Positions 12,299-62,326 of a DNA stretch of 64,000 bases are shown in pieces. Position 1 is the stretch's first letter. Each line of letters begins with the position of its first letter. Source of the stretch: Siansivirga zeaxanthinifaciens CC-SAMT-1 (GTDB lineage: Bacteria > Bacteroidota > Bacteroidia > Flavobacteriales > Flavobacteriaceae); the NCBI RefSeq assembly GCF_000941055.1, contig NZ_CP007202.1, forward strand, positions 2,898,437 to 2,962,436, read 5' to 3'. The notes below the pieces were generated by a model. The model saw only the letters and a program-made list of their open reading frames with translations, had not been told where the DNA came from and ran no database searches. Made by a program: the position numbers and the translations under genes.

Positions 12299-14992
12299 CT
12301 ATAATCTTTTATAAATTTCAATGGCATTTAACACAGGTTCCCCAACTATTTTTTTGAAATTAACAATCAAAGGATCTCCTAATTTCACCGATAATTCCGT
12401 TTTAATTTTTACGGCACGGTATTCACCATATTGCCCTAATAAATCGATTTTATCTATAATTTTTTTATCATTAACGGTTACGGAAAAAGTACGATTTGTA
12501 ATTTTTGATTCTTGCTTGGTTTCCTCAGTCAAGTCGTAAGGTAAATGTTTTGCTTTAGTGCCTTCTAATTCGGCAAAATGCAATGTTATTTCATATACAC
12601 CCGCTGAAACATCAAACCGATATTGGTCTATACCTACTAATTGGGTTTGATAAATAGGATCGTTAAAGGTTCCTTTAATGGTTTGTTTTGCACCATAAGG
12701 TTGTTGCATATTTTTATCTGGTCGCACATAGGGTTTCCCACCAATATGTCCCCAACTTCCTGGAGTATATGCTCTGTCGAACATCCATGCGTGGTCTATT
12801 TTATCATCGTAAAAGAAACGCCTATCGCCTACATTGATTGAGATACCACTAGCAGGGAAATTTTTTAATGATATTGGTAGCACATTTATACGGATTTCGG
12901 AAAAATCCTCTAAATAGGTACCATTTGTAGTTTTAGCAACCAGTTTATTGAGACCATTTACAAAAGGTACTTCAAAAATAGCAATTTTATCTATAACAGG
13001 CTTAACACCCAGGCTTTTGCCATTTAAAAGTAATTCAATTTCTTGTTGGTTGGAAAAAACTTGAACTGGCATTGTTGAAATCCCCAATCCTTCTTGGTCT
13101 TCAATATAAGTACGCTGTCCCCAGGTTTTAGTAGCAATAGCAACAAAAGGCTCCTTTAATAATGATGCCTGATAATAGAAAAATACATCTTTAGGTTTTC
13201 TATCTAATCCTACCAAGCCTTTATTATTAATACTTTGAACAGCATCAATACGGCCTTCAGAATTAAAATCGGCATAATTCCAAACATTCACACCCGCTAT
13301 AAAATCATTTTTGGCAAAATATTCTAAATAATATTTATGATATTCTACAGCATATTCGTGTGTAAAATCAAAACGCATCGGGTACAGCGTATGTAATCTT
13401 GGATCTACTCCAGCACCATATTCCGTAATAATCATTGGTTTTTTGATGGCTGCGTGAATTTCTTCAATTTTTTCTGGAAGTAACTCGTACGAACCACCAT
13501 ACCATCCGTTGTAAATATTCCAGCCCACAATCATAGGAATATCAGTTAATCCTGCTTTACTATAACGTTCTAAGCTATTATGGTTAGGAATCATGGTGTA
13601 TCGATACGGATCTTCAGCGCGTGTTAAATCTTCAATTTTTTGTGCTAAATCTTTAATATACTTTGTATAAATTTCATAACGCTCTTTGTTATCTGTAAAT
13701 TTTGGATGTAAAATCACCTCATTCATATAAGCCCAAATTATTAAGCTTGGATGATTGTAATTTTGACGAATCATTTCCAATTGGGCACTTAAACAGTTTT
13801 GGGCAAATGCTTCGCTTTCGGTTACTGTGTCAATAATGGGTGTTTCAACTGTAGTAATTATTCCCAAGCGATCGCACATTTCAAGAATGATGGGGTCTTG
13901 TGGGTAGTGGGCAATTCTTAAAAAATTACTACCCATGGCTTTCATTCTTAAAATATCTTCAACATGAACGTGGTCTGGTACCGCATTACTGATATCTTTA
14001 TAATCTTGATGGCGGTTAGTACCGATTAACTTTAAGTATTTCCCATTTAAAAAGAAACCTTTATCGACATCAAATGTAAACCAACGAAATCCGAGAGGAT
14101 TCGCCGATTCATCTAATTTTTGATTTGTTTTTGCATCGTAAAGTTCGCAAACTACCTTATATAAATTAGGTGTTTCTGGCGACCACAATTGCGGATTTAA
14201 AACGGGGTTTAATTCTAAATTAAATTCATTAGAAATTCCAGCTACTAATTTTAATGACGTTGTTTTTTCTTGAACAAGTTCCTCATTCGGGCTGTAAACT
14301 TTTGTTACTAATTTTACTTTTTTAGTTGAAGTATCATCATTTTTGATGTTTACTTTTAAGTTTATATCGCCGCTTTCAGCCGATACATTTGGCGTCGTAA
14401 TAAAAACACCATTAGACGCATCATCTACAATATCGAAGTGAACTTTTTCTGTTACTATTAAATTAACATCACGATATATTCCTCCAAAAAAGGTAAAATC
14501 GGCACGTAATGCAGGCCAGTCTTCGTTTTCTGAATTATCTGCTTTAACTGTTACATTAAACGTTGTAAATTCTGTTGCTTTGTCAAATTTTATAAAATCT
14601 GAAACAGGTACTACAAAACGGGTAAAACCACCAATATGTGTTCTAGCCAATGTATTGTTTATGTATACTTCAGCTGCGGTTGCTACGCCTTCAAAGAAAA
14701 GAAAAACTTCCTTTTCACTAAATGACGTTGGTATTCTTACTTCTTTAGTATACCATCCTGCCCCACGATAAAAGCCTTCTTCTTCATCTACCACATCTTC
14801 TATATTCCAAGTATGAGGAATATCGACTAATTTTGCTTTGTCTCTTTGTAAATTAAACTGATTGATTTCTTGAATAGCATTGCCTTTAATGAAATGCCAA
14901 GATTCGTTAATTGTATATTTTAATTGGGCATTTACAGTTGTATAGCCTGAAACTAGGATAATAACCAAAATTATTAGTGATTTCTTCATCAT
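12299..14992 (-). CDS. GH2 glycosidase with C-terminal malectin (CBM57-like) domain
   Basis: Secreted 897-aa GH2 enzyme. The signal peptide ends near TVNAQ (residue 23). The jelly-roll domain is about 25-180, the Ig-like domain 185-300 and the TIM barrel 305-620. The acid/base Glu is E425 in AYMNEV and the nucleophile E524 in IITEYGAG, so both catalytic residues are in place. A DUF4982-like sandwich follows. The C-terminus (about 735-897) is a malectin-type carbohydrate-binding domain, shown by INVGDRRFFYDD, YEITLHFAELEG, RTFSVTVNDKKI and GEPVLNAIEIYK. Substrate may be a beta-linked galactose or glucuronic acid. It lies in the long operon between two sulfatases, with about 40 bases to the upstream gene. 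Confidence 0.9.
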   Translation of the reverse strand: MMKKSLIILVIILVSGYTTVNAQLKYTINESWHFIKGNAIQEINQFNLQRDKAKLVDIPHTWNIEDVVDEEEGFYRGAGWYTKEVRIPTSFSEKEVFLFFEGVATAAEVYINNTLARTHIGGFTRFVVPVSDFIKFDKATEFTTFNVTVKADNSENEDWPALRADFTFFGGIYRDVNLIVTEKVHFDIVDDASNGVFITTPNVSAESGDINLKVNIKNDDTSTKKVKLVTKVYSPNEELVQEKTTSLKLVAGISNEFNLELNPVLNPQLWSPETPNLYKVVCELYDAKTNQKLDESANPLGFRWFTFDVDKGFFLNGKYLKLIGTNRHQDYKDISNAVPDHVHVEDILRMKAMGSNFLRIAHYPQDPIILEMCDRLGIITTVETPIIDTVTESEAFAQNCLSAQLEMIRQNYNHPSLIIWAYMNEVILHPKFTDNKERYEIYTKYIKDLAQKIEDLTRAEDPYRYTMIPNHNSLERYSKAGLTDIPMIVGWNIYNGWYGGSYELLPEKIEEIHAAIKKPMIITEYGAGVDPRLHTLYPMRFDFTHEYAVEYHKYYLEYFAKNDFIAGVNVWNYADFNSEGRIDAVQSINNKGLVGLDRKPKDVFFYYQASLLKEPFVAIATKTWGQRTYIEDQEGLGISTMPVQVFSNQQEIELLLNGKSLGVKPVIDKIAIFEVPFVNGLNKLVAKTTNGTYLEDFSEIRINVLPISLKNFPASGISINVGDRRFFYDDKIDHAWMFDRAYTPGSWGHIGGKPYVRPDKNMQQPYGAKQTIKGTFNDPIYQTQLVGIDQYRFDVSAGVYEITLHFAELEGTKAKHLPYDLTEETKQESKITNRTFSVTVNDKKIIDKIDLLGQYGEYRAVKIKTELSVKLGDPLIVNFKKIVGEPVLNAIEIYKRL

Positions 14993-23099: not shown

Positions 23100-25007
23100 T
23101 TAGATAACTTGAATGGAACATACAACCTCTTTTATGCCTTCTGGAAAAGCCACCATAATTGGTACTACTTCCATCCCCGGAACCTGATTGAATATGCGCT
23201 CTTTCTCAGATTTTTTAATTGCTAAAGGCACATTGGATTCCAAAACCACTATTCCTTCTTTTTTATGAATTTCAATTTTAGTATCTGAAACTTTTACTAC
23301 TTTTTCACCTGTTGGCGAAATAATAGGCAACACTAAAGTATCGCCGTTTGCATCTGAAGCTGTTCTTAATGCTTTTATGGTTGTTTTTTCTTTATTAAAT
23401 GCATAATTAAGTGTAAATGCACCATCTAAATTTAATGTTGCTTTATCTCTATCTGTAAGTATTGTATTGACAGAAAAATTGATTTTTCCATTGGAGTCTG
23501 TCACCGAAACTTTTGCTTTTAAATCTTGTATATTGGTATACCAAACATTATTAACAATACGTTCTACACGAGGTGTTAAACAAAACTCTTCACCTGGCTG
23601 TGGTTGCTGATTGTATGGTTCTACTTCCATATATTCCACCATACTTGCTGTAAATAATGGTCCCACTTTTTCGTGCCATAATACCGCTAACGAACCGCCC
23701 GTAGCTGCAACTGAATATTTTTTCTTCCAAACTTGGTCATAACTAGACACGGTACTTCGCCATGGACCTCTAGCACCTAACCAAACATCGAGTTCTGGAA
23801 AATGTTTTACCCCATCATTCGCTTTTCTTGGAATAGGAGTTTTCTTGTTTACATTTTTTAATTTTTTAGAATTGTCTAATACAAACGCGACATTTTTAGC
23901 ATGCGCAAACGTATGATGCATACAAGGTTTTTCTCCATAAGATTCGTAATGTAACCCACCTGCCAATAAACCGTTTACTGTACATCGTTGTAATAATTCG
24001 GTACTTAAAATTGCTGCCGTACCAAAAGCAGGGTTTCTATCGGCTAATAAGGTAAAGGCTGGCTGGCAACCATCGGTCGTTCTGCTTCCCCAATAGGTCC
24101 ATTTGTTTTGGCGCGTACCAAAACTATTATCCCAAGCGCCATCTGGTAACATAAATTCTAAATGGCCATTTAAAGACTCTGTAAGTAATTGTATTAACTT
24201 TTCATCTTTTTTATGCACGGCATATTGTACAACAGCATTTAAAGACTCCTCGACATTATAGCCTATATCAATTGGAAGTAAACCTTTTTCGCTTTTTTCA
24301 TCATCGGGATGATCTTCACCATAAAGTAATTTATTAGGCTCGGTTAAATATTTAGGAATTAAAAGTGCTAACTCATCACTTCTTTTTATATATTTTTCTT
24401 CATTAAAATAGTCACCTAAAAATGACAGCGCATAAATGGCGGTAAACCGGTAATTGATATGGCTGAAATGGTCATCATATTTTAAATAAACGTATTCGAT
24501 AGCTCGTTTTAAACGCGCCTCCCATTTTTGCTTCATTTCATTTGTGAATAAATGCCCGTGATGATGCAGGGCTTCACCTAAAGCAATAGACCCAAAAACA
24601 GTTGTTCCATTCCAGGATTTAGGGTCCAACATATTAGTCCAACTACCATCTGGTAAATCAACGTTTACCGACCAGTCCATTAATTTTATGGCAGCTTCGA
24701 GATATTTTTGGTTGCCTGTTTTATCGGCCATATACATTAATGGATAAACAGCATCGGAACAACGCCCATGAATATCCTCGCAGGCATGACAATATAGTGC
24801 ACCGTGAGTTACTGGATTATTTAGATCGTTAATTTGATCGCGTACCATGGCATCACACCACGTGGTTAATAACTTAAATGATAACGCATCAAAGTCACTA
24901 GACAATATTAATTCTCTTTGTTTTTGACTACCTCCACAAGCATATACAGGCAATAGTAAACTAGCGCTACCTAACGCCGTTAAATGCATAAATGAACGTC
25001 TTTTCAT
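23100..25007 (-). CDS. Lipoprotein with predicted alpha/alpha-toroid plus beta-sandwich; candidate uronic-acid lyase/dehydratase
   Basis: Unassigned 635-aa exported protein. The N-terminus has twin arginines (KRRSF) and a lipobox (PVYAC, Cys24), so it may use Tat and then be lipidated. Residues about 35-400 are helix-rich with a toroid look (YPLMYMADKTGNQKYLEAAIKLMDW, then ALSFLGDYFNEEKYIKRSDELA). They include conserved-looking acid/base candidates: HACEDIHGRC near 73, TYWGSRTTDGCQPA near 304 and CMHHTFAHAKN near 366. Residues about 430-635 are a beta-sandwich. This two-part plan is that of toroid polysaccharide lyases (heparinase II/III, PL8-like) and of uronic-acid-acting enzymes. The known Formosa ulvan locus has a PL40 lyase and an oligosaccharide dehydratase whose sequences I cannot compare here. 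It is first gene of the long left-hand operon, after its own upstream element (25075-25092). Confidence 0.55.
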   Translation of the reverse strand: MKRRSFMHLTALGSASLLLPVYACGGSQKQRELILSSDFDALSFKLLTTWCDAMVRDQINDLNNPVTHGALYCHACEDIHGRCSDAVYPLMYMADKTGNQKYLEAAIKLMDWSVNVDLPDGSWTNMLDPKSWNGTTVFGSIALGEALHHHGHLFTNEMKQKWEARLKRAIEYVYLKYDDHFSHINYRFTAIYALSFLGDYFNEEKYIKRSDELALLIPKYLTEPNKLLYGEDHPDDEKSEKGLLPIDIGYNVEESLNAVVQYAVHKKDEKLIQLLTESLNGHLEFMLPDGAWDNSFGTRQNKWTYWGSRTTDGCQPAFTLLADRNPAFGTAAILSTELLQRCTVNGLLAGGLHYESYGEKPCMHHTFAHAKNVAFVLDNSKKLKNVNKKTPIPRKANDGVKHFPELDVWLGARGPWRSTVSSYDQVWKKKYSVAATGGSLAVLWHEKVGPLFTASMVEYMEVEPYNQQPQPGEEFCLTPRVERIVNNVWYTNIQDLKAKVSVTDSNGKINFSVNTILTDRDKATLNLDGAFTLNYAFNKEKTTIKALRTASDANGDTLVLPIISPTGEKVVKVSDTKIEIHKKEGIVVLESNVPLAIKKSEKERIFNQVPGMEVVPIMVAFPEGIKEVVCSIQVI

Positions 25008-25146: not shown

Positions 25147-25179
25147 AAAAAAACCTGCGAAGCTATCTTCACAGGTTTT
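25147..25179 (-). terminator. Rho-independent terminator after the PL24-like gene
   Basis: On the minus strand an 8-bp arm (AAAACCTG), one mismatched pair, a 4-bp inner stem (GAAG/CTTC) and an ATAG loop form a hairpin (25150-25157 with 25172-25179, inner 25159-25162 with 25167-25170). A T-rich run follows. It starts 26 bases after the stop at 25205. It separates the PL24-like gene from the operon starting at 25007. Confidence 0.8.
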
Positions 25180-25204: not shown

Positions 25205-27663
25205 CTATCTTACAACAAATTTTGTGTTGTAAGATTGACTATCACTGGTTACTTTTACAAGATACATTCCTGACTTAAATCGTCCATCATTTTCTATCAG
25301 TATTTTACCGTTGTTAAGGGTATTTCTATAAATTATTTTACCTAACATGTCGCTAATTAAAATACTAGCTTTTTGCGCATTATTTAATGCTATAGTAAAA
25401 CTTTTACCCACTGGATTTGGGAATACTTTTAAAGATACTTTTTCAAATGTTCTTTCATCAATACTTAAGGTAGTAGATTCTACAATCCATTTAGACCTAT
25501 CATCTGAATTTAAAACGTGTTCTATAATGCCGTTAACATTGTGATATATATAATTAGATCCATTTCGTGTTTGGAATTGATATGTACCATCTGAACTGTT
25601 ATAAATCACGGTGAATTGTTTGTCAACATCTGAATTTGGGGCAGAAAAACCCGTATTTATAATATCGTTTGCTGGAGTACCAGCTGCTCTTAAAACACCT
25701 CTATCCGATCGTTTGCTTTCAATATTATAATAGGCTCCAACTTTCACAAATTCCCATTCTTTATCACTAGGTACAACATCAATGCCATTATCACTCTCCA
25801 ATACATCTGAACCTACGGAATGAAGATATTTGCCCGTAACGAAATTCTTGATACGATACTTAGCTCCTGTTAAATCGGTTGGATCGAAAACTTGAAAATT
25901 AACTGTGATTTCTGGAGAAGAAACACTAGCATTACTAGCGTTGTAAGCTATCGCCTGAACGCTATAATTACCAGGCGCACTCGGCGTCCAATCTAATGAA
26001 TATAGTGGAGCTGTATCTTCGCCATAAAGAATACCATTTACTTTAAACTCTACTTTAGAAATACTACCGTTTTCATCGACCGCATTTGCAGAAAGCGGAA
26101 CTGTATCTCCAACATTATAAACACCTCCATTACTGGGCGAGGTAAGAGAAACTCTAAAAGGATCCTGAACAATGCCCAAATCGATTACTTGAAGGTAAAG
26201 GGGTTGCGCATTTCCGGTTAACTTTTGCATCAAATAGTAATACAATTTACCATTTGCTATGTAAATTTGACCATGATCAAAAACTTTACCAGAGGTAGCC
26301 TCATAAATTCTTGTAAAATTGTTGGTACCGCCTTGGGCTTTTTCAACATAAACACGACCTGCAGAAGTTAAACCGATGATAAAAATATCATTACCAGAAG
26401 TGTAAATTTCATCGGCACCCGAAAATGCTTCTGAGGTAGTAAAATTAGTAGCTCCGGCGGGTTTGTATGTATGTAAATTTTTAGTTACACTAAATTGATT
26501 ATCTCTAACCCTACTAATTATGTGAACATCACCCTGTTCGGTAACGGTCCAATCAAAACCACTAACAATACTAATGGAATTTGCATTGGTACCTTGAACA
26601 TAATCACCTGGTTCCATTACTTTTATAAAATCTGCATCGTATAATGGTAAGGAAAAACTTTGCCCTTGGTGGTTTTTCCAACCTGTGAATCCGTTTTGAT
26701 CATCAGAATACGCATAATAAACTCCATTTTGGTATTGATATTTATCGCTATTATTGGAAGATCTTCTTTGAAAACCAATACGCATTTTTCCGTTTACATA
26801 TTTAATATCACCGTAAAGTCCCCAATTATAAGTTATCCCTGGTTGATTCTTGGCATTTAATACATTGAAGTGTGTAAAACTAGACCAGGTCGAAGTATTG
26901 GCATTGTATTTAGAAAATTTATATGCACCATTATTATTCCCTCCTTCACGCATGTACATAAATAAATCTCCAGAATCATTTAAGAAAAATTTAGGGTATG
27001 TAAGCGCCGAAAAATTATTGTAATCTACACCGCCATTGAGGCTTAAATGCTTGTAACCTCCGTTTGAATTTTGCACAAACTTATCTAAGGTAAAGTCTGC
27101 ATCAGGAAGTGCTGCAGCATTTGCTATGGAATAGGAATATCTAAAATAATCATTACTTAAACTACCATCTGAAGGTCTTGTATTGCTGTAAGAATGCATA
27201 TCGTACAATAAATGAATGGTACCATTTAAAGGGCTTACACCTACTGCTATAGTATTGTGAGACTCTCCAATCCAATATCTGTTTTGATAGCCGGTGTGAC
27301 GATGCGGAAACTCGATAGTTGCCAAGGTACCTGTAATAGTATTATAACGCGTTAGCATCACGTGTCTATCGTCTTTGCCTCCACGATACCACGTTATAAA
27401 AACATATCGTTATACGTTTTTATACAATCGCCATGGGCAGAAATATTTCTACCAAAAAAATAGTCGTAAGGAGCTGAATCTCCTGTATTACTAGCGCTTC
27501 CAGAAACCTTATTACCATCAAAATGTAAACCAAAGTCGGTAATTTTTATTTCGCTTTCTAGAACAACCTGAGCCGATGCGATAGAATAAAAAAGAATAGA
27601 TACATATAGCCAAGAAAATTTAAATACATGGTTATATATACTTTGAAAATAATTATTTTTCAT
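25205..27663 (-). pseudogene. PL24-type ulvan lyase, type IX-secreted, split by a one-base frameshift
   Basis: Together the two frames encode one protein of about 818 aa. The first 89 residues (27663-27394) hold a signal peptide (ends SIASAQ) and the start of a lyase domain (YDYFFGRNISAHGDC). The rest continues in another frame from TWYRGGKDDRHVMLTRY. The family motif RHTGYQNRYWIGESHNTIAVG is present, with the His of SHNT a likely catalytic residue of the beta-propeller ulvan lyases (BNR_4 superfamily; PL24). After the propeller come an Ig-like domain (GGVYNVGDTVPLSANAVDE), a ricin-like trefoil (YRIKNFVTGKYLHSV) and a type IX sorting tail (VSLKVFPNPVGKSF to the end). The break is in an A5 run (27398-27402); one more base restores the frame as MFFITWYRGG. 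If real, the two pieces would not give a working propeller. It has its own upstream element and terminator. Confidence 0.85.
27398..27402 (-). other. Frameshift site in the PL24-like gene
   Basis: Five A on the plus strand (five T in the mRNA sense). With five, the frame reads NDMFL and stops at 27396-27394. With six it would read NDMFFITWYRGG and join the downstream frame exactly at conserved residues. A single lost base, by mutation or homopolymer read error, explains the split. I see no slippery heptamer or downstream structure that argues for programmed frameshifting. Confidence 0.85.
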
Positions 27664-31705: not shown

Positions 31706-32968
31706 TTATTGGTATTCACATGGATAAAGTAATGAGGTTGTACTTGTATTCTTAGCATTGCTTAATTTACAAAATTCTGGTATTTCAAAGATACTTCCGG
31801 CAAAGGTGAATAAGTTATTAAGTGATGTTTTAGCTTTTTCAAAATCACCTATTTGTTGATAATCCCATTTTTTATCTTCCAGTACATACGGTTTTAAAAA
31901 TTGAAACGCCATTTGAATACTTGCACCATTATGAGCTTGATAATTCCACAAATCAACATTAAGTTTTTCACCAAAATAGGCTAGCTGTGTAAATCCTTTT
32001 AAATTCATTGTACTGTAAGATAAAGCTTTTGTTCTGGCTAATTCATGTGGTTGTTTACCGTCCTTTTCTATTTGCGTGGTAATTCGTTTATCTTTAACCT
32101 CTTCTAAAACCAGTTTTGCCTCATCGATCCTATTTAAAAACATAAGAATACTTACTACTTGCACATCGTAGTAAACAGCATGATTGTTTTTGGTATTTTT
32201 CTCAAAAAGTCCGTTTTCGCTAGTTTGAAGCCAATATAAGTAGGCGCTAAACCAATCTCGTAAGGCTGTACTTGTATTAATATCCATTGCACCGTTTAAC
32301 TCTAGAATTTCAATAGCTGTTATTATATTGGTTAATCCTGCAAATTCAATAATTCCAATACCTCTACCTGTATTCAATCCAGGAATTCCTTGAGCAAAAT
32401 TAAGGTTCGGATTCATTTTAGTTTCCTCATTTAAGAACCAGACTTTTAGTAACTCGAGACACTTTTTGGCATATTTTTGTTTGTCTGAAAAAAAATACGC
32501 TAAAGCGAGGTTAAAGGTGTTTTTAAACATGTCGCTTTTTACCGCTTCGTCTGTGGTATTTTTTCTGGTAAGTGGATTAATTTCACCATCCCTTCTTATC
32601 CAAGGCAAACCATCTGGCTTACTAGGATCTGGCCACCAATAAGGGCCAATTGACAAATAATCATGTTTATTTCCACTTGGAGGAGTTTGTGTTTTTTGAA
32701 CCACCGAAAAAACACCTTCTCTTTGTGCTTTATTTGCACTTTTTATTAAAGCTTTATATAAACCCGAAAATTGAGGTGTATGTATCTTTTCTTTTACCTT
32801 GCTTATTTTGCTATAATTATAAACCGTTAAATTAGTTTTTAGCGTATCATTTATTTTATATGGTTTAGCAATATTTTGAAATGGCGTTGTAGTTTTTTCT
32901 ATACTGTTTATTTCAACATTACCAACCAACAAAATTAATGACGTTATTTTAAGGATATTTAATATCAT
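31706..32968 (-). CDS. Alginate_lyase-superfamily enzyme, PL38-like (glucuronan-type lyase)
   Basis: Exported 420-aa alpha/alpha-barrel protein. A hydrophobic leader covers about residues 1-17. Superfamily blocks are clear: DYLSIGPYWWPDP near 103, DGEINPLT near 127, KNNHAVYYDVQ at 260-270 (candidate Asn/His/Tyr catalytic centre), and HELARTKALSYSTMNL near 306. This layout is that of the PF05426 group that includes PL5 alginate lyases and PL38 beta-1,4-glucuronan lyases. With glucuronic acid in ulvan, a uronate lyase acting on GlcA-containing oligomers is more likely than an alginate lyase, since no other alginate gene is present. It is first gene of its block, with a weak copy of the shared element upstream. 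Confidence 0.8.
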   Translation of the reverse strand: MILNILKITSLILLVGNVEINSIEKTTTPFQNIAKPYKINDTLKTNLTVYNYSKISKVKEKIHTPQFSGLYKALIKSANKAQREGVFSVVQKTQTPPSGNKHDYLSIGPYWWPDPSKPDGLPWIRRDGEINPLTRKNTTDEAVKSDMFKNTFNLALAYFFSDKQKYAKKCLELLKVWFLNEETKMNPNLNFAQGIPGLNTGRGIGIIEFAGLTNIITAIEILELNGAMDINTSTALRDWFSAYLYWLQTSENGLFEKNTKNNHAVYYDVQVVSILMFLNRIDEAKLVLEEVKDKRITTQIEKDGKQPHELARTKALSYSTMNLKGFTQLAYFGEKLNVDLWNYQAHNGASIQMAFQFLKPYVLEDKKWDYQQIGDFEKAKTSLNNLFTFAGSIFEIPEFCKLSNAKNTSTTSLLYPCEYQ

Positions 32969-37849: not shown

Positions 37850-40498
37850 CTAATGCGTTTTCGCTAATTTTACGACGAAATAAGGCGCTAAATTCTCCTC
37901 ATTTAGTATTCCTGGATGCATGACTACATGTCCATTTTTAGAAATGGTAGTAAAATAAACAAGTAAATCATATTGTGGGTTTAAATATTTAGCTGGAATA
38001 TTGGCGGAATAATTATTCCCATTCCACAACATTGGTTGTTCAATAAATTTGCCGGCAGTCATATCTGCTATTCTAAAATGTACCTTTGGGGATTGTTCAT
38101 TTTCTAAGACAATGCCTGTTAACAAGCTTACCTTCAAGTCGTTGTTTGGATCAAAAAACTCAGGAATGATTGCTTTAAATTTGTTAGAAACAAACGAATA
38201 ATCTTCATTTAACTGTTGAGTAAAACTTAAAATTGGGTTATTTTTTTGTTTACCAATAATATCTTTTAATTTTATTATATCCTTATCAATTTCAGTCAAT
38301 CTATCTTTCCAAGTACCATTGTCGTGCAAGAACATTGGTCTAGTATGATAAATTAATTGGGTTAAATCAACAATATTTTGCCAATTTTTTCTGGCGGTTT
38401 TCATTTTTTCTAAACACGATAACAAATAGCCACTATTTTTAGTTTCTTGAAAAAATACAAAATCGGTTGATGCTTTTATTTTATTTGAATGATAGGCTGC
38501 TAAGGCTGCAGTAATTTTTAAATCTAATTCGTTTGTACGGTACTCTTTTTTAAAAAATTCAGGAATATCAGTTAATTTTACTTTACTCAAAGCTTTTAAA
38601 GTTTCTTTTGAATTTTTTTCAAAAAGATTGGCTAATTGTACCGGATTTATTTTTGGTTTAATTTCTTTGTTTAATACATCTTTTACATATTCTTCGATGC
38701 AGTAAAATAACCCAGGATCGCCAGGTTCTGTAGATTGATAGGTTCTCCCTTTTGAAACATAAAACGAATTCGCATTATTTTCACTAAAAAGAGCGCCGCC
38801 ACTTTCAATTTCAGCCCAATTATAATTTGCTGGATGATATGTTAAATGCGAAGAAGTAATAAGAGGTAAAACTTTTCCAGCGTGGCTATAAGCATCTAAA
38901 ACCGCTTGGTAAGAATGCCCATAATGTTCTTTAAATGCTCTTTTCCAAACCTGGTCACTACAGTTTTTTGAATATCCTAGCCTACCAAAAAGTAGATACC
39001 AAGACCAATATCGTTCGTCTTCCCACTTAAAATACTCATTGGATTTATCTTGAAATAAGTTCCATGAATTTTCTTTTCTTGTTAAGGGTGGTGTTACTTG
39101 AAAACCTTTACTACCACCAAAACTAGTTGTATAAGAAAAACGCTTTACATAATCTGGATCTGCCCAAGTAAACATTCTAATAGTTCCTAACCCCCATAAT
39201 CTATAAATAAAATCAAAATCTCTTGAATTATTTAAAAAATCTGCATAACCATAACGCTGGCGCTTATCTATATTATCTAACATAGCTAATTCGCTCTTTC
39301 TCATTTCGGTTGGATGGTAAGGTAATCCTACACCTTCCCAAGAATATTTGCTAGTAACGCTTAAATTAATTCCGTTTTCTAAAACCCATTCGCGCATTTT
39401 AACAGTTAACCCTTTTGCTCTAATATCTAAAAAGAGTTTGCCTTTTTGTTCTATATTACTATCGCCAATTGCTTTAATAATTTCTTTCCAAAAATTTTCT
39501 GCAGTTTCTCCAAAGCCACCAATACCCGATTCGTAGTTAACTCTAAGTTGAATACCATCAATTTCAGGAACTTTTTTTAGAAGTTCCTTCATTCCATTAG
39601 AACAATAACTTGTAAATGCTTCGGTGTTGTTTGGAAGCCCATCAATTAACTCATGGCTCATTCCGTGGCCCCAAATTCCAAACACAAATTCGAGTCCGTA
39701 ACTATGACATATATCGCCAATTCGTCTAAGTTGGATTAAATATTCAGTTGGTGTTTTTTTGTAATTATTTTTAAGCTTTATTTCTTCAAAACCAGGAACT
39801 TGAAAAAGATATGGATAAACAGGAATCATAAAATCTTCGTTTTTTCCATCGTTGTAACCTGTAATTAACGTTAGTCTATTAAATCGGTTAATTGCCAATT
39901 GACTAATATAGTATTGCCAGTATTCTTCAGAAAAAAACCAAGAATCATCGCGCTCATCTGTAATAAATTTATCAACGCCACGAACCTTATTATCTGGAAA
40001 TTCTACTGTATTTTTTAATTGGGTTAAAGCAATTAGTCCTTTATCTTTAATTTGTTCGGCCAATTCACTTAGAGCATAAAAAAGTCCTTTGGAATCGGTA
40101 CCTCCAATAATAAGAGCTAAGCCCTTGTTTGGAGTTTCTTTCCATTGATAAAATACACCCTCTGATTTATTATTGATAATTTCTGGATTATCGGAGACTA
40201 ATCTTCTAACAACCGTATTCTCTAATGTCCCTACAATTAAATTTACTTTTCGACTGCTCTGTGTCCAGTGTTGAATTGTAGTTATTGTACCTCCAGCGGC
40301 TTTTATTGATTTATATAGTTTTTTTTTACCTTGTTCTATTGTGGTTTTATTATTACTAAAAAAAACTGTTTTATCAATTATTGTAATTGCATTATTAAAA
40401 ATAAGTTCATCTTTATTTAAGTTCTGTCCACTTATTCTTAAAGTAGATGTTACTAGGCTTAGTAGTAGAAAAAAATAAAGATGAACTTGATATTTCAT
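37850..40498 (-). CDS. Unassigned large secreted enzyme with GH20/GH67/GH115-type N-terminal domain
   Basis: Exported 882-aa protein (signal peptide to about residue 24). Residues about 30-160 look like the small alpha/beta domain that precedes the barrel in GH20, GH67, GH84 and GH115 (VNLIVGTLENTVVRRLV, then LALIIGGTDSKGLFYALSELA). Residues about 170-560 look like a TIM barrel (QLAINRFNRLTLITGYNDG, YGLEFVFGIWGHGMSHE, IDGIQLRVNYESGIGGFGE, GINLSVTSKYSWEGVGLPYH). Acid candidates are the Glu in NYESG and in YSWEG. The rest is helical, ending in a beta-sandwich (PKVHFRIADMTAGKFIEQ). I do not recognise a numbered family. An alpha- or beta-uronidase on ulvan oligomers is one hypothesis. It lies between an atypical GH2 and a sulfatase in the nine-gene run. 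Confidence 0.6.
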   Translation of the reverse strand: MKYQVHLYFFLLLSLVTSTLRISGQNLNKDELIFNNAITIIDKTVFFSNNKTTIEQGKKKLYKSIKAAGGTITTIQHWTQSSRKVNLIVGTLENTVVRRLVSDNPEIINNKSEGVFYQWKETPNKGLALIIGGTDSKGLFYALSELAEQIKDKGLIALTQLKNTVEFPDNKVRGVDKFITDERDDSWFFSEEYWQYYISQLAINRFNRLTLITGYNDGKNEDFMIPVYPYLFQVPGFEEIKLKNNYKKTPTEYLIQLRRIGDICHSYGLEFVFGIWGHGMSHELIDGLPNNTEAFTSYCSNGMKELLKKVPEIDGIQLRVNYESGIGGFGETAENFWKEIIKAIGDSNIEQKGKLFLDIRAKGLTVKMREWVLENGINLSVTSKYSWEGVGLPYHPTEMRKSELAMLDNIDKRQRYGYADFLNNSRDFDFIYRLWGLGTIRMFTWADPDYVKRFSYTTSFGGSKGFQVTPPLTRKENSWNLFQDKSNEYFKWEDERYWSWYLLFGRLGYSKNCSDQVWKRAFKEHYGHSYQAVLDAYSHAGKVLPLITSSHLTYHPANYNWAEIESGGALFSENNANSFYVSKGRTYQSTEPGDPGLFYCIEEYVKDVLNKEIKPKINPVQLANLFEKNSKETLKALSKVKLTDIPEFFKKEYRTNELDLKITAALAAYHSNKIKASTDFVFFQETKNSGYLLSCLEKMKTARKNWQNIVDLTQLIYHTRPMFLHDNGTWKDRLTEIDKDIIKLKDIIGKQKNNPILSFTQQLNEDYSFVSNKFKAIIPEFFDPNNDLKVSLLTGIVLENEQSPKVHFRIADMTAGKFIEQPMLWNGNNYSANIPAKYLNPQYDLLVYFTTISKNGHVVMHPGILNEENLAPYFVVKLAKTH

Positions 40499-55850: not shown

Positions 55851-56861
55851 CTATAATTTAATGATTTTTTTTGAAAAGGTCCTTACTGAATCGCTAATTG
55901 AAATAAAATAAACACCAGTTTCTACATGACTCATATCGATAGTTTGATTGGAATTTTTACTTACAGTTTCACTTATGATTGTACCGTAAATATTTGAAAT
56001 AACCAGTTTTGAATTACTGGGTATATTAATAAGTTCTAGTTTACCATTTGTTGGGATTGGAAATACCTTTATGTCTTTAAACGATTTTGAATTGACAGAA
56101 AGGGAACTGTCGTAACACATAGATTCACTATTAGTTAAATTAAAAGCAACCGAATCAGAAACATCAACTCTTCTTAAAACCATTTTATCCATAAAAAAGA
56201 AATTTGACCTAGCATCGACAATTATAGAATAATTGCCCGCTGTATTAAAAGTTGCCCATATAAATCTAAAGGAATCTCCATCGTTAGTGTTTGTTACAAA
56301 ACCCCAGCGCTGTTCAGGAGTCGAATTTATGGGGTGTCTGTTCATAAAAGCCTTAAAATAACCATTAACACTTGAACCTAAAGGACAATCTCTATTTGGA
56401 TTCGTATTACAATTAGGTTTTGGTTCTAATGCAACAGCATCGGTAGCGTTGCCTGACTTTGTTGCATAAAAATCATCAGCATCAATACGAAGCCAAGCAT
56501 CATTGTGCTCTCCTCCAGAACTACCTGTACCAATGCGCCCTCGCCATGCAAATCTATAGGTGCCTGGATTATTAATTTTTATGTTATATGTTATTGGCGA
56601 ACCAGAAAGGGCATTGAAAGATTCTGTGCCATTCCAAAATATATAATTAATTGTTGATCCAGGTAAATTAGGGTCTGATTCACTTCCTGTTTGCCAATTT
56701 GATCCAGAAGGTAAAACACCAGATTCCATCTCAATGGTTAACAGTCCATTTTGTTCTTCGAATGGCAATACCCCATTACAAGCTGCAACTTGTGAAAACA
56801 ATGGCATTGAAATTAGTAACGTAATTAAAAATAATATAATCTTTGTTGAAAATATGTTCAT
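55851..56861 (-). CDS. Secreted carbohydrate-binding-like protein with type IX sorting tail
   Basis: I start it at the ATG 56861-56859 (MNIFSTKIILFLI; 336 aa) rather than an upstream GTG. The signal peptide ends near PLFSQ. One beta-sandwich module (about 35-240) opens with LPFEEQNGLLTIEMESG and has NPGTYRFAWRGRIGTGSSGG and FFFMDKMVLRRVDVS, similar in plan to the module at 34754. The last 75 residues are a type IX secretion/sorting tail (IKVFPIPTNGKLELINI ... TGVYFISISDSV). There are no catalytic motifs. It probably binds the polymer at the cell surface or in the medium, near the PL25-like enzyme encoded 29-48 bases upstream. Confidence 0.75.
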   Translation of the reverse strand: MNIFSTKIILFLITLLISMPLFSQVAACNGVLPFEEQNGLLTIEMESGVLPSGSNWQTGSESDPNLPGSTINYIFWNGTESFNALSGSPITYNIKINNPGTYRFAWRGRIGTGSSGGEHNDAWLRIDADDFYATKSGNATDAVALEPKPNCNTNPNRDCPLGSSVNGYFKAFMNRHPINSTPEQRWGFVTNTNDGDSFRFIWATFNTAGNYSIIVDARSNFFFMDKMVLRRVDVSDSVAFNLTNSESMCYDSSLSVNSKSFKDIKVFPIPTNGKLELINIPSNSKLVISNIYGTIISETVSKNSNQTIDMSHVETGVYFISISDSVRTFSKKIIKL

Positions 56862-56908
56862 TATTATTAAATTTTGCACTTATTTATTTTAAAATCTTTT
56901 AAGTTTCA

Positions 56909-61273: not shown

Positions 61274-62326
61274 TTAAATAGAATTGCCAATACCAACCAA
61301 AACTACAGATAGGAGAATAACAACAATTCCTGTAGCAATGGTCCATTTAGTTTTCTTAGCAACACCTTGCCATTCTTTACGATATATCCCCCAAAGGTTA
61401 GCTGTAAGAATAATGGTCGACATGTGCAAAATCCATGAACTAGCACCATTACCTAATTTACTTTCACCCATGCCGTAGAAAAAGAATTGTAAAAACCAAA
61501 TCGTTCCCGCTAATGCTGAAAACAAAATATTATTGCGAATAGGTGTACTAGAATTTGTAAAATTTTTATATGATTTATTTTTTATGCTTAATAGGGTCGT
61601 CCAGATGAGATTGGTTGCTAAACCTCCCCAAAGAATCACAACAAAAGTAACATTATTGGCAAATAAATGATCGTAACCTGCTGCAACGGCAGCATCTGCA
61701 AGTGGTTTTCCTGCTTCTATACCAAAACTAAAAAAGGAACTTAAAATTCCAGATAGTACTGCAACTATGAGTCCTTTAATTAAATTGAATTCTGTAACAC
61801 TTTTCTTTTTTTCCTCCTCTGAAAGTTCATTTTCTTTCATAATACCAGCCTTACCGCAAACGGCAATACCAATAATACAAATCAAGACTCCCAACAATAC
61901 AATTTGTCCGCCAGAGCTCGCTAACATGTCCGAAAAAGAAGTTTTACCAACCTGAGGATTAAAATTGTAATAAATAGAAGGTACAATGGCCCCAAAAGCG
62001 GCACAAAATCCGAGAACTACTGAGTTTCCCAGGGACATACCCAAATAGCGTACTCCTAACCCATAGGATAAACCTCCAACTCCCCAAAGCAACCCCATTA
62101 AAAAAGTAAATCCTAAAATTGTGTTTGAACATGATGTAATAATTTCCATAAAACCAGGAACGGTTAAAAATGCTGCAATTGGCGGTACAATTAACCACGA
62201 CATAACGCCACCAACCATCCAATAGGTTTCCCAAGACCAGCCTTTAACTTTGTTGTAAGGCATGTAAAAACTACCGGCAGCGACACCGCCTAATGAATGA
62301 AATAGAATACCTAATATTGCTTGCAT
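61274..62326 (-). CDS. rhaT: L-rhamnose/H+ symporter
   Basis: Inner-membrane transporter of 350 aa (E. coli RhaT is 344 aa) that imports L-rhamnose with protons from the periplasm. About ten membrane helices can be traced. RhaT-type motifs are present: ILGILFHSLGGVAAGSFYMPY at the start (residues 4-24), VKGWSWETYWM, GVGGLSYGLGVRYLGMSLGN near 87-106, SFFSFGIEAGKPLAD, and WFLQFFFYGMGESKLG near 277. It has no signal peptide, as expected. It delivers the rhamnose released by the GH78/GH106 enzymes to the cytoplasm, where RhaM (29177) acts. A weaker copy of the shared element lies 60 bases upstream. Confidence 0.95.
   Translation of the reverse strand: MQAILGILFHSLGGVAAGSFYMPYNKVKGWSWETYWMVGGVMSWLIVPPIAAFLTVPGFMEIITSCSNTILGFTFLMGLLWGVGGLSYGLGVRYLGMSLGNSVVLGFCAAFGAIVPSIYYNFNPQVGKTSFSDMLASSGGQIVLLGVLICIIGIAVCGKAGIMKENELSEEEKKKSVTEFNLIKGLIVAVLSGILSSFFSFGIEAGKPLADAAVAAGYDHLFANNVTFVVILWGGLATNLIWTTLLSIKNKSYKNFTNSSTPIRNNILFSALAGTIWFLQFFFYGMGESKLGNGASSWILHMSTIILTANLWGIYRKEWQGVAKKTKWTIATGIVVILLSVVLVGIGNSI

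Follow-up and report, generated by a model that had tools for sequence, protein, structure and literature searches.

A PL37-family protein at the head of a sulfatase and rhamnosidase operon in Siansivirga zeaxanthinifaciens, with a predicted role in ulvan oligosaccharide dehydration

The gene, its operon and its neighbours

The 64-kb stretch of DNA analysed here (the window) sits within the single-contig genome (3.30 Mb) of Siansivirga zeaxanthinifaciens CC-SAMT-1, and carries on its minus strand an intact ORF, 23100-25007, which starts with ATG and encodes 635 aa. Because full-length homologues at 69-77% identity are found in Lutibacter, Flavobacterium, Flavicella and an uncultured Saprospiraceae, the sequence comparison indicates that this is a genuine gene, in agreement with a preliminary description of the window that had reported a 635-aa protein here. 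The product, which we assign below to polysaccharide lyase family PL37, comprises a Tat lipoprotein-like signal, a toroid (residues 38-385) and a C-terminal beta-sandwich (approximately residues 393-635). Its N-terminus (MKRRSFM...VYAC; residues 1-27, 24927-25007, minus strand) matches, at the level of a motif, a twin-arginine signal with RR at positions 3-4 and a lipobox-like Cys at position 24. An RR/RK-x-F motif followed by a Cys at positions 22-28 recurs in 36/36 rows of the main Bacteroidota clade in our alignment of 48 homologues (alignment A1), and TatC is encoded in the genome. With RRxF, lipobox-like Cys and genomic TatC all present at motif level, we infer a putative Tat-exported lipoprotein held in the periplasm, and the earlier Tat/lipoprotein label stands on the same footing.

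The gene heads a run of 11 same-strand ORFs that extends from 25007 to 1187, with never more than 43 bases between neighbours. The rest of the run (1187-23078, minus strand) encodes GH78, GH78, GH43, sulfatase, GH2-malectin, sulfatase, SASA esterase, sulfatase, GH2 and GH106 proteins; with two GH78 enzymes, one GH106 and three sulfatases, it bears out the earlier view of the gene as the first of an operon with rhamnosidases and sulfatases. The gene had also been credited with an upstream element of its own, which holds for a terminator-like hairpin of 13 pairs (25150-25179, minus strand) between it and the upstream PL24 gene. A scan of 401 bases gave two terminator-like sites where shuffles led us to expect 0.1, the one other than the hairpin lying inside the PL37 gene, whereas the single promoter-like site upstream of the PL37 gene compares with 2.2 expected and is thus no more than chance.

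Directly upstream lies a gene for a PL24 ulvan lyase (25205-27361, minus strand) with a beta-trefoil domain and a T9SS tail, a relative of 6byp (E 5e-143); the PL24 label for its solved relatives is taken from PMC12915356. Across 25205-27663 the reading frame of this gene is broken near 27406, with the N-terminal portion of the homologous proteins matching a different frame, which reflects either a pseudogene or an assembly error. Two adjacent ORFs at another locus (L028:442-1269 and 1288-2076) carry two parts of one sulfatase domain, and a PL24 copy elsewhere in the genome (C1:3057688) has an internal TGA; together with the PL24 break, these suggest several indels or pseudogenes in the region. 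The window further contains an 882-aa protein (37850-40498) with no Pfam match at E up to 0.001 and no PDB sequence match at E up to 0.01, which has a relative at 58% identity in L080.

Assignment to PL37 and distribution of the family

The best point of comparison is a protein of Formosa agariphila KMM 3901, P29_PDnc (CDF79930), which PMC8511951 describes as an oligosaccharide dehydratase, using CAZy family PL37 to predict such dehydratases. Eight residues were mutated in that work (D248, E254, E255, D269, D290, R300, K303 and Y306), and D248, R300 and K303 are given as essential and Y306 as dispensable; the text also has R230 for the inactive Arg, but the mutant list and a legend (Arg294, in a numbering six lower) point to R300. 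An earlier paper (PMC6168547) describes the same Formosa protein as a broad-spectrum ulvan lyase with an incomplete toroid and a beta-sandwich, and notes homologues in gut Bacteroides and Firmicutes.

We searched for the spacing of the eight mutated residues (D-x5-EE-x13-D-x20-D-x9-R-x2-K-x2-Y) and found an exact match from D247 to Y305, where D247 corresponds to P29 D248, so that the numbering of the two proteins is nearly identical. This strict signature occurs only once in the six frames of the window, inside the 23100-25007 ORF, and besides the window it is present in 29 of 32 loci, among which there are several overlaps; a looser form alone is matched by L004 and L031, two loci with a single gene between them, and L028 is without a gene that carries it. 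Seven of the eight positions are invariant in alignment A1, and the eighth is conserved at 90% or more. Given the signature spacing, its conservation and a two-domain plan as described in the papers, the protein belongs to PL37, as judged against the published residue positions and descriptions of P29_PDnc; the incomplete (alpha/alpha)6 toroid and C-terminal beta-sandwich of the family are present in our model. General searches were less informative, with no match in NCBIfam and none above the curated cut-off in Pfam, where the best was GH76 at E 0.0016. The two options raised beforehand, a local counterpart of the Formosa oligosaccharide dehydratase or a new family, are thereby separated: the protein falls in a known family by the P29_PDnc signature, and the idea of a counterpart holds at family level by the signature, the two-domain plan and the association with ulvan lyases. 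An AlgL-type protein in the window (31706-32968) was also considered as the P29 counterpart and rejected, being without the signature and having alginate lyases (3nfv, 8bdq) as its best PDB relatives. It thus carries an alginate-lyase domain (PF05426) within an ulvan cluster, and proteins of the type recur near close PL37 homologues (L006, L007, L008, L012 and L062).

The distribution of PL37 was followed in 397 Flavobacteriaceae genomes, the same set in the PL37, PL24 and PL28 searches as far as their listings show. PL37 was found in 26 genomes, PL24 in 17 and PL28 in 19, and PL37 is present in 17/17 genomes with PL24 and in 18/19 with PL28 (the exception being G260). Overall, 19 of the 20 genomes with PL24 or PL28 have PL37, compared with 7 of the 377 with neither (p 1e-25, a value that overstates independence, as the genomes are related).

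Our tree places the target in a clade of nine rows with support 100/100. PL24 immediately precedes the PL37 gene in four of the nine (the window, L009, L011 from Flavicella sediminum, and L037/L062), and a GH78-like gene lies at most four genes downstream in eight, the exception being L012. A separate clade of 14 rows (support 100/100) shares 46-49% identity with the target, and in 13 of these rows PL28 lies no more than 4 kb away (exception G002); the neighbour in L070 was confirmed as PL28 against solved structures. Low-identity PL24-like matches beside this paralogue clade can be due to C-terminal domains that the proteins have in common, and the neighbour in L031 matched PL24-type and PL42-type chains only weakly. 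P29 and the extracellular ulvan lyase are neighbouring loci in Formosa (BN863_22180 and BN863_22190; PMC6168547), the lyase P30 being named as PL28 in PMC8511951. Because these loci adjoin, P29_PDnc itself probably falls, on the basis of synteny, in the PL28-linked clade and not in that of the target. Thus, the two proteins share the mutated residues with identical spacing, the toroid and beta-sandwich, a predicted periplasmic location and an adjoining ulvan lyase gene, but the neighbour of the target is PL24 rather than PL28. What is already known is the family, and what is new is probably a member in a subclade other than the tested one; a search of open-licence papers returned no characterised member of the target's subclade.

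Other members of the family occur in different surroundings. A second PL37 protein of the same genome (G000:C1:2978568-2980487, covered by L005 and L029), 48% identical to the target and 55 kb away, belongs to a third subclade common to several relatives and lies in a sulfatase/GH88/GH59 cluster. Gut Clostridia (L018-L027) have PL37 proteins of about 565 aa that are without a signal peptide and carry Asn or Ser in place of H445; in the partly scanned stretches of L022 and L021 the neighbours resemble housekeeping genes (PNPase, PTS EIIC, DNA glycosylase, kinase, GntR regulator and pyruvate formate lyase). The PL37 gene of Bacteroides caecigallinarum (L016:6172-8085) lies with heparinase II/III, SusC/SusD and sulfatase genes, a gene content consistent with a glycosaminoglycan substrate.

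Fold, conserved cleft and comparison with other toroid enzymes

An AlphaFold model computed with alignment A1 (pLDDT 90.6, pTM 0.89) has helices at 38-378 and strands at 399-634, and this confident model agrees with the toroid plus beta-sandwich plan proposed earlier from the sequence. The top Foldseek matches are PL35 GAGase II, PL33, human dermatan sulfate epimerase 1, PL15 and PL12, with E about 1e-12 to 1e-9 and TM 0.44-0.56; they are loose, at rmsd 7-11 A for the best 20. Ranked by Z, the best VIA-align rows are single-domain cellobiose 2-epimerases (Z 23.9), which match the toroid only, and dermatan sulfate epimerase 1 has Z 20.7 with 509 residues aligned over 35-635 at rmsd 5.0. A common fold of this kind, seen here in a model, does not establish function. 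At the sequence level, phmmer against PDB sequences gave 0 matches at E up to 10, and a profile search gave 11 at the same threshold, the best six being GH76 mannanases. We rejected these mannanases as a route to the fold; their matches span some 30 residues of helical repeat (best E 0.002). Sequence searches of solved structures revealed no PL37 entry.

The conserved residues of the family gather in one region of the model. Invariant residues concentrate at the N-terminal ends of alternate toroid helices (26/104, compared with 4/104 for the remaining helices; Fisher p 1.6e-5, the limits of the zones being our own choice), forming the clusters H80/R82, W132, N185/Y186, D247/Y250/N251/E253/E254, R299/K302/Y305/R309 and C362/H364/H365, and these clusters support a conserved active-site cleft. 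All of the following lie on the minus strand. The segment 240-256 (24240-24290) holds D247 (P29 D248), Y250, N251, E253 and E254, which are invariant in 48/48 sequences. The loop 286-313 (24069-24152), identified by signature and alignment, holds R299 and K302 (P29 R300 and K303), Y305 (P29 Y306) and R309. N185-Y186 (24450-24455), likewise invariant, includes a candidate carboxylate neutraliser outside the P29 mutant set. The His-rich motif that the preliminary description had picked out as a candidate active site, CMHHTFAHAKN (residues 362-372; C362-M-H364-H365...K371 at 23892-23924), begins the last toroid helix in the model; with C362, H364, H365 and K371 identical in 48/48 homologues, it retains its place as part of the conserved cleft. 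Finally, H445 in the beta-sandwich (23673-23675) is His in 38/38 Bacteroidota rows and Asn or Ser in the 10 Bacillota rows; its occurrence in 38/48 rows overturned an idea of a mechanism with no beta-domain His.

According to Table 4 of PMC12088678, most lyases of the toroid fold use an Asn neutraliser, a Tyr and a His, and the candidates for such lyase-type residues in the target, from alignment, would be N185 and Y250 (both 48/48) and H445 (38/38 Bacteroidota rows), none of which is among the eight published P29_PDnc mutants. The target has its two-domain fold in common with PL35 GAGase II/VII, PL33 BtPL33, PL12 heparinase III and PL15, in most of which an Asn and then a Tyr lie in the toroid and a His in the beta domain (PMC12088678, PMC11848413). 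However, it has no sequence match to these families, its neutraliser-to-Tyr spacing would be 65 as against 51-63 in the lyase families listed in those two papers, and the Arg/Lys loop 299-302 is a PL37 trait that sets it apart. Heparinase-like profiles reached at most 39% hhalign probability; two runs, at 39% and 19%, place the conserved Asn on N185, although the runs are not independent, the second set lying within the first, and in neither was the catalytic Tyr aligned to Y250. Human dermatan sulfate epimerase 1 (6hzn) matches the target's fold in both domains at 9-10% identity, and would share its C5-proton chemistry but catalyses a different reaction (PMC11848413).

The preliminary description had proposed heparinase II/III, PL40 and GH154 for comparison, and each gave way to PL37. 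The heparinase II/III families PF16889 and PF07940 (PL12/PL21) had no match in the target at E up to 1 and were absent from the families listed for the 48 members at E up to 0.01. The PL40 lyase Uly1040 (PMC12915356) resembles the target in its toroid and beta-sheet plan and in its association with ulvan, but has 856 aa and, in its C-terminal domain, the catalytic residues His485 and His487 with Mn, whereas the target has 635 aa and shows H-x-H only within 148-152, in the toroid. The length and active-site layout thus differ, and the PL40 features (a C-terminal-domain His-x-His, an N-W/H motif and a length near 856 aa) are not found in the target; a test of PL40 residue spacing on the unannotated 882-aa ORF at 37850-40498 also found nothing.

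The former GH154 enzyme BcGDH (PDB 9O4U, 9NWF) is described in PMC12269599 as a glucuronate dehydratase and partner of GH88, and a uronate dehydratase reaction is also what we predict for the target. Alongside a GH154 alignment of 18 sequences (A2), we modelled a homologue (419 aa, matching 9o4u at E 2e-151), which has 12 long toroid helices as in the target, short helices being left out of the count, but is without a beta-sandwich. Ala mutants of BcGDH at E74, R78, N176, N177, W178, F181, Y229, R285, Y289 and Y354 had no detectable activity, with a poor substrate (PMC12269599). Mapped through alignment A2, these functional residues fall close to where inner helices 2, 6, 8 and 12 start and to the loop before 10. 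The PL37 invariants follow the same helix order in a register that is not identical, a comparison by helix order in two separate models. This correspondence is only suggestive, and counts as weak evidence because the active sites of toroid enzymes are generally at inner helix ends. Neither sequence nor structure searches gave a further link: PF10022 (DUF2264) had no match in the target at E up to 1 and none across the whole genome at E up to 0.001, and GH154 entries were absent among the best 50 structure-search rows listed for the target. Homology to GH154 was rejected after profile comparison, where an untrimmed hhalign probability of 53% (0/100 shuffles as high) was lost on trimming the signal peptides. 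In the untrimmed run a non-toroid oxidoreductase control (GFO) also scored 35.7; after trimming, the PL37-GH154 score was 17.8 against a mean of 16.0 and a maximum of 24.4 in 200 shuffles, and GH88 (36.7) and a pooled heparinase-like set (40.2) both scored above it. Since trimming abolished the score, the untrimmed signal came mainly from the common Tat signals.

Predicted function and competing explanations

The family signature, fold class, conserved cleft, genomic association and export motif, all seen directly, together lead us to consider it fairly probable that this is the PL37 enzyme of an ulvan locus, a periplasmic Tat lipoprotein predicted to dehydrate terminal GlcA/IdoA of ulvan oligosaccharides, a reading in which activity, substrate, location and individual residue roles are predictions. 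The sulfatases and GH78 rhamnosidases would remove terminal Rha3S and expose a saturated GlcA/IdoA at the non-reducing end, which the lipoprotein would bind in its toroid cleft. R299 (with N185) may then neutralise the carboxylate, D247, or Y250 activated by D247, would abstract the C5 proton, and K302 would protonate the leaving C4 hydroxyl. The essential nature of the Asp, Arg and Lys is taken from what PMC8511951 reports for P29_PDnc, and the other steps are our own proposal. Loss of water would give a 4,5-unsaturated uronic acid, to be removed by GH88/GH105-type enzymes encoded outside the window.

The preliminary description had stated that no GH105/GH88 is present in the window and that the fate of unsaturated ends is open. 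The first statement agrees with Pfam scans, in which PF07470 was absent from 30 of the 32 listed ORFs (55851-56879 and 61274-62326 being left out), and with the genome, whose three PF07470 matches all lie outside the window. The second is right within the window. Genome-wide there are three GH88/GH105-type genes, of which two flank the window: a GH88 protein about 12 kb past the window (C1:2974017; a relative of 3wiw, E 8e-95) and one about 20 kb before it (C1:2877480), the third being at C1:3079796. Within the operon, the GH2-malectin protein (12299-14992) has the beta-glucuronidase LacZ4 as its best NCBIfam match, at 423 bits, below the cut-off of 950, and is a possible hydrolytic alternative for terminal GlcA.

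Several points count against the dehydratase reading. The target is about 48% identical to the presumed P29 subclade, which is linked to PL28 and not PL24; in seven genomes with PL37, these searches detected neither of the two lyase families; no GH88/GH105 was found in the operon or window; and the structural matches of the model are loose in Foldseek and favour toroid-only cellobiose 2-epimerases in VIA-align. The endolytic lyase activity attributed to the Formosa protein in PMC6168547 also counts against it, and leads to the foremost competitor, a true polysaccharide lyase, endo or exo, which would carry out beta-elimination at Rha3S-(1,4)-GlcA/IdoA of ulvan or of oligosaccharides derived from it; N185 would be the neutraliser, Y250 the acid/base and H445 a partner. 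The match of both domains to lyase families in fold, the conservation of these three residues and the report that the Formosa member is endolytic on ulvan and degrades heparan sulfate and chondroitin sulfate (PMC6168547) speak for such a lyase, but PMC8511951 reports the Formosa protein as without lyase activity on seven ulvans with the His-tag at either position, and a PL24 ulvan lyase gene already adjoins the target, though its frame is broken in the assembly. We regard this explanation as unlikely.

Less likely again is a substrate other than the ulvan backbone, dehydrated or cleaved, for example a branch GlcA on Rha3S or another Rha/GlcA glycan. The different sulfatase/GH88 context of the second genomic PL37, the relatives from gut Clostridia and from a heparinase locus of Bacteroides, and the five of nine close-clade members that are without a PL24-like gene in the stretches read (where PL28 would be visible only through shared C-terminal domains) would fit such a substrate; set against this are the PL24 gene that immediately precedes the target and three of its relatives (L009, L011 and L062) and the strong genome-level association of PL37 with ulvan lyases. 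By analogy with dermatan sulfate epimerase 1, third in Foldseek and at Z 20.7 in VIA-align, the protein might instead be a C5-epimerase of GlcA/IdoA, and 9/48 members have weak matches to the C5-epimerase family PF06662. These are unspecific, as similarly weak matches occur to GH76 (13 members), GH127 (9) and GH88 (8), and the only characterised relative found makes an unsaturated product, so that an epimerase appears highly improbable.

The dehydratase reading nevertheless leaves room for a more speculative proposal, which we hold with considerable doubt, that PL37 is dual and combines a lyase triad (N185/Y250/H445) with a dehydratase set (D247/R299/K302/H364/H365), expelling either water or a sugar from C4. 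The dehydratase set would, as far as the models indicate, lie on those helices that carry the proven active site in the former GH154 dehydratases. Whether PL37 is a lyase or a dehydratase is disputed between two papers on one protein; if true, duality would bring the 2018 lyase report and the 2021 dehydratase report into agreement, and P29 D248 would activate the neighbouring Tyr (Y250; Y251 in P29 by offset) rather than act as the base. The proposed residue set is testable by point mutation, and the PL24-linked subclade offers a second enzyme for settling the dispute. Beyond the mechanism, because the association with ulvan lyases is strong in the sampled genomes, our data suggest that PL37 could serve to mark ulvan degradation among Flavobacteriaceae.
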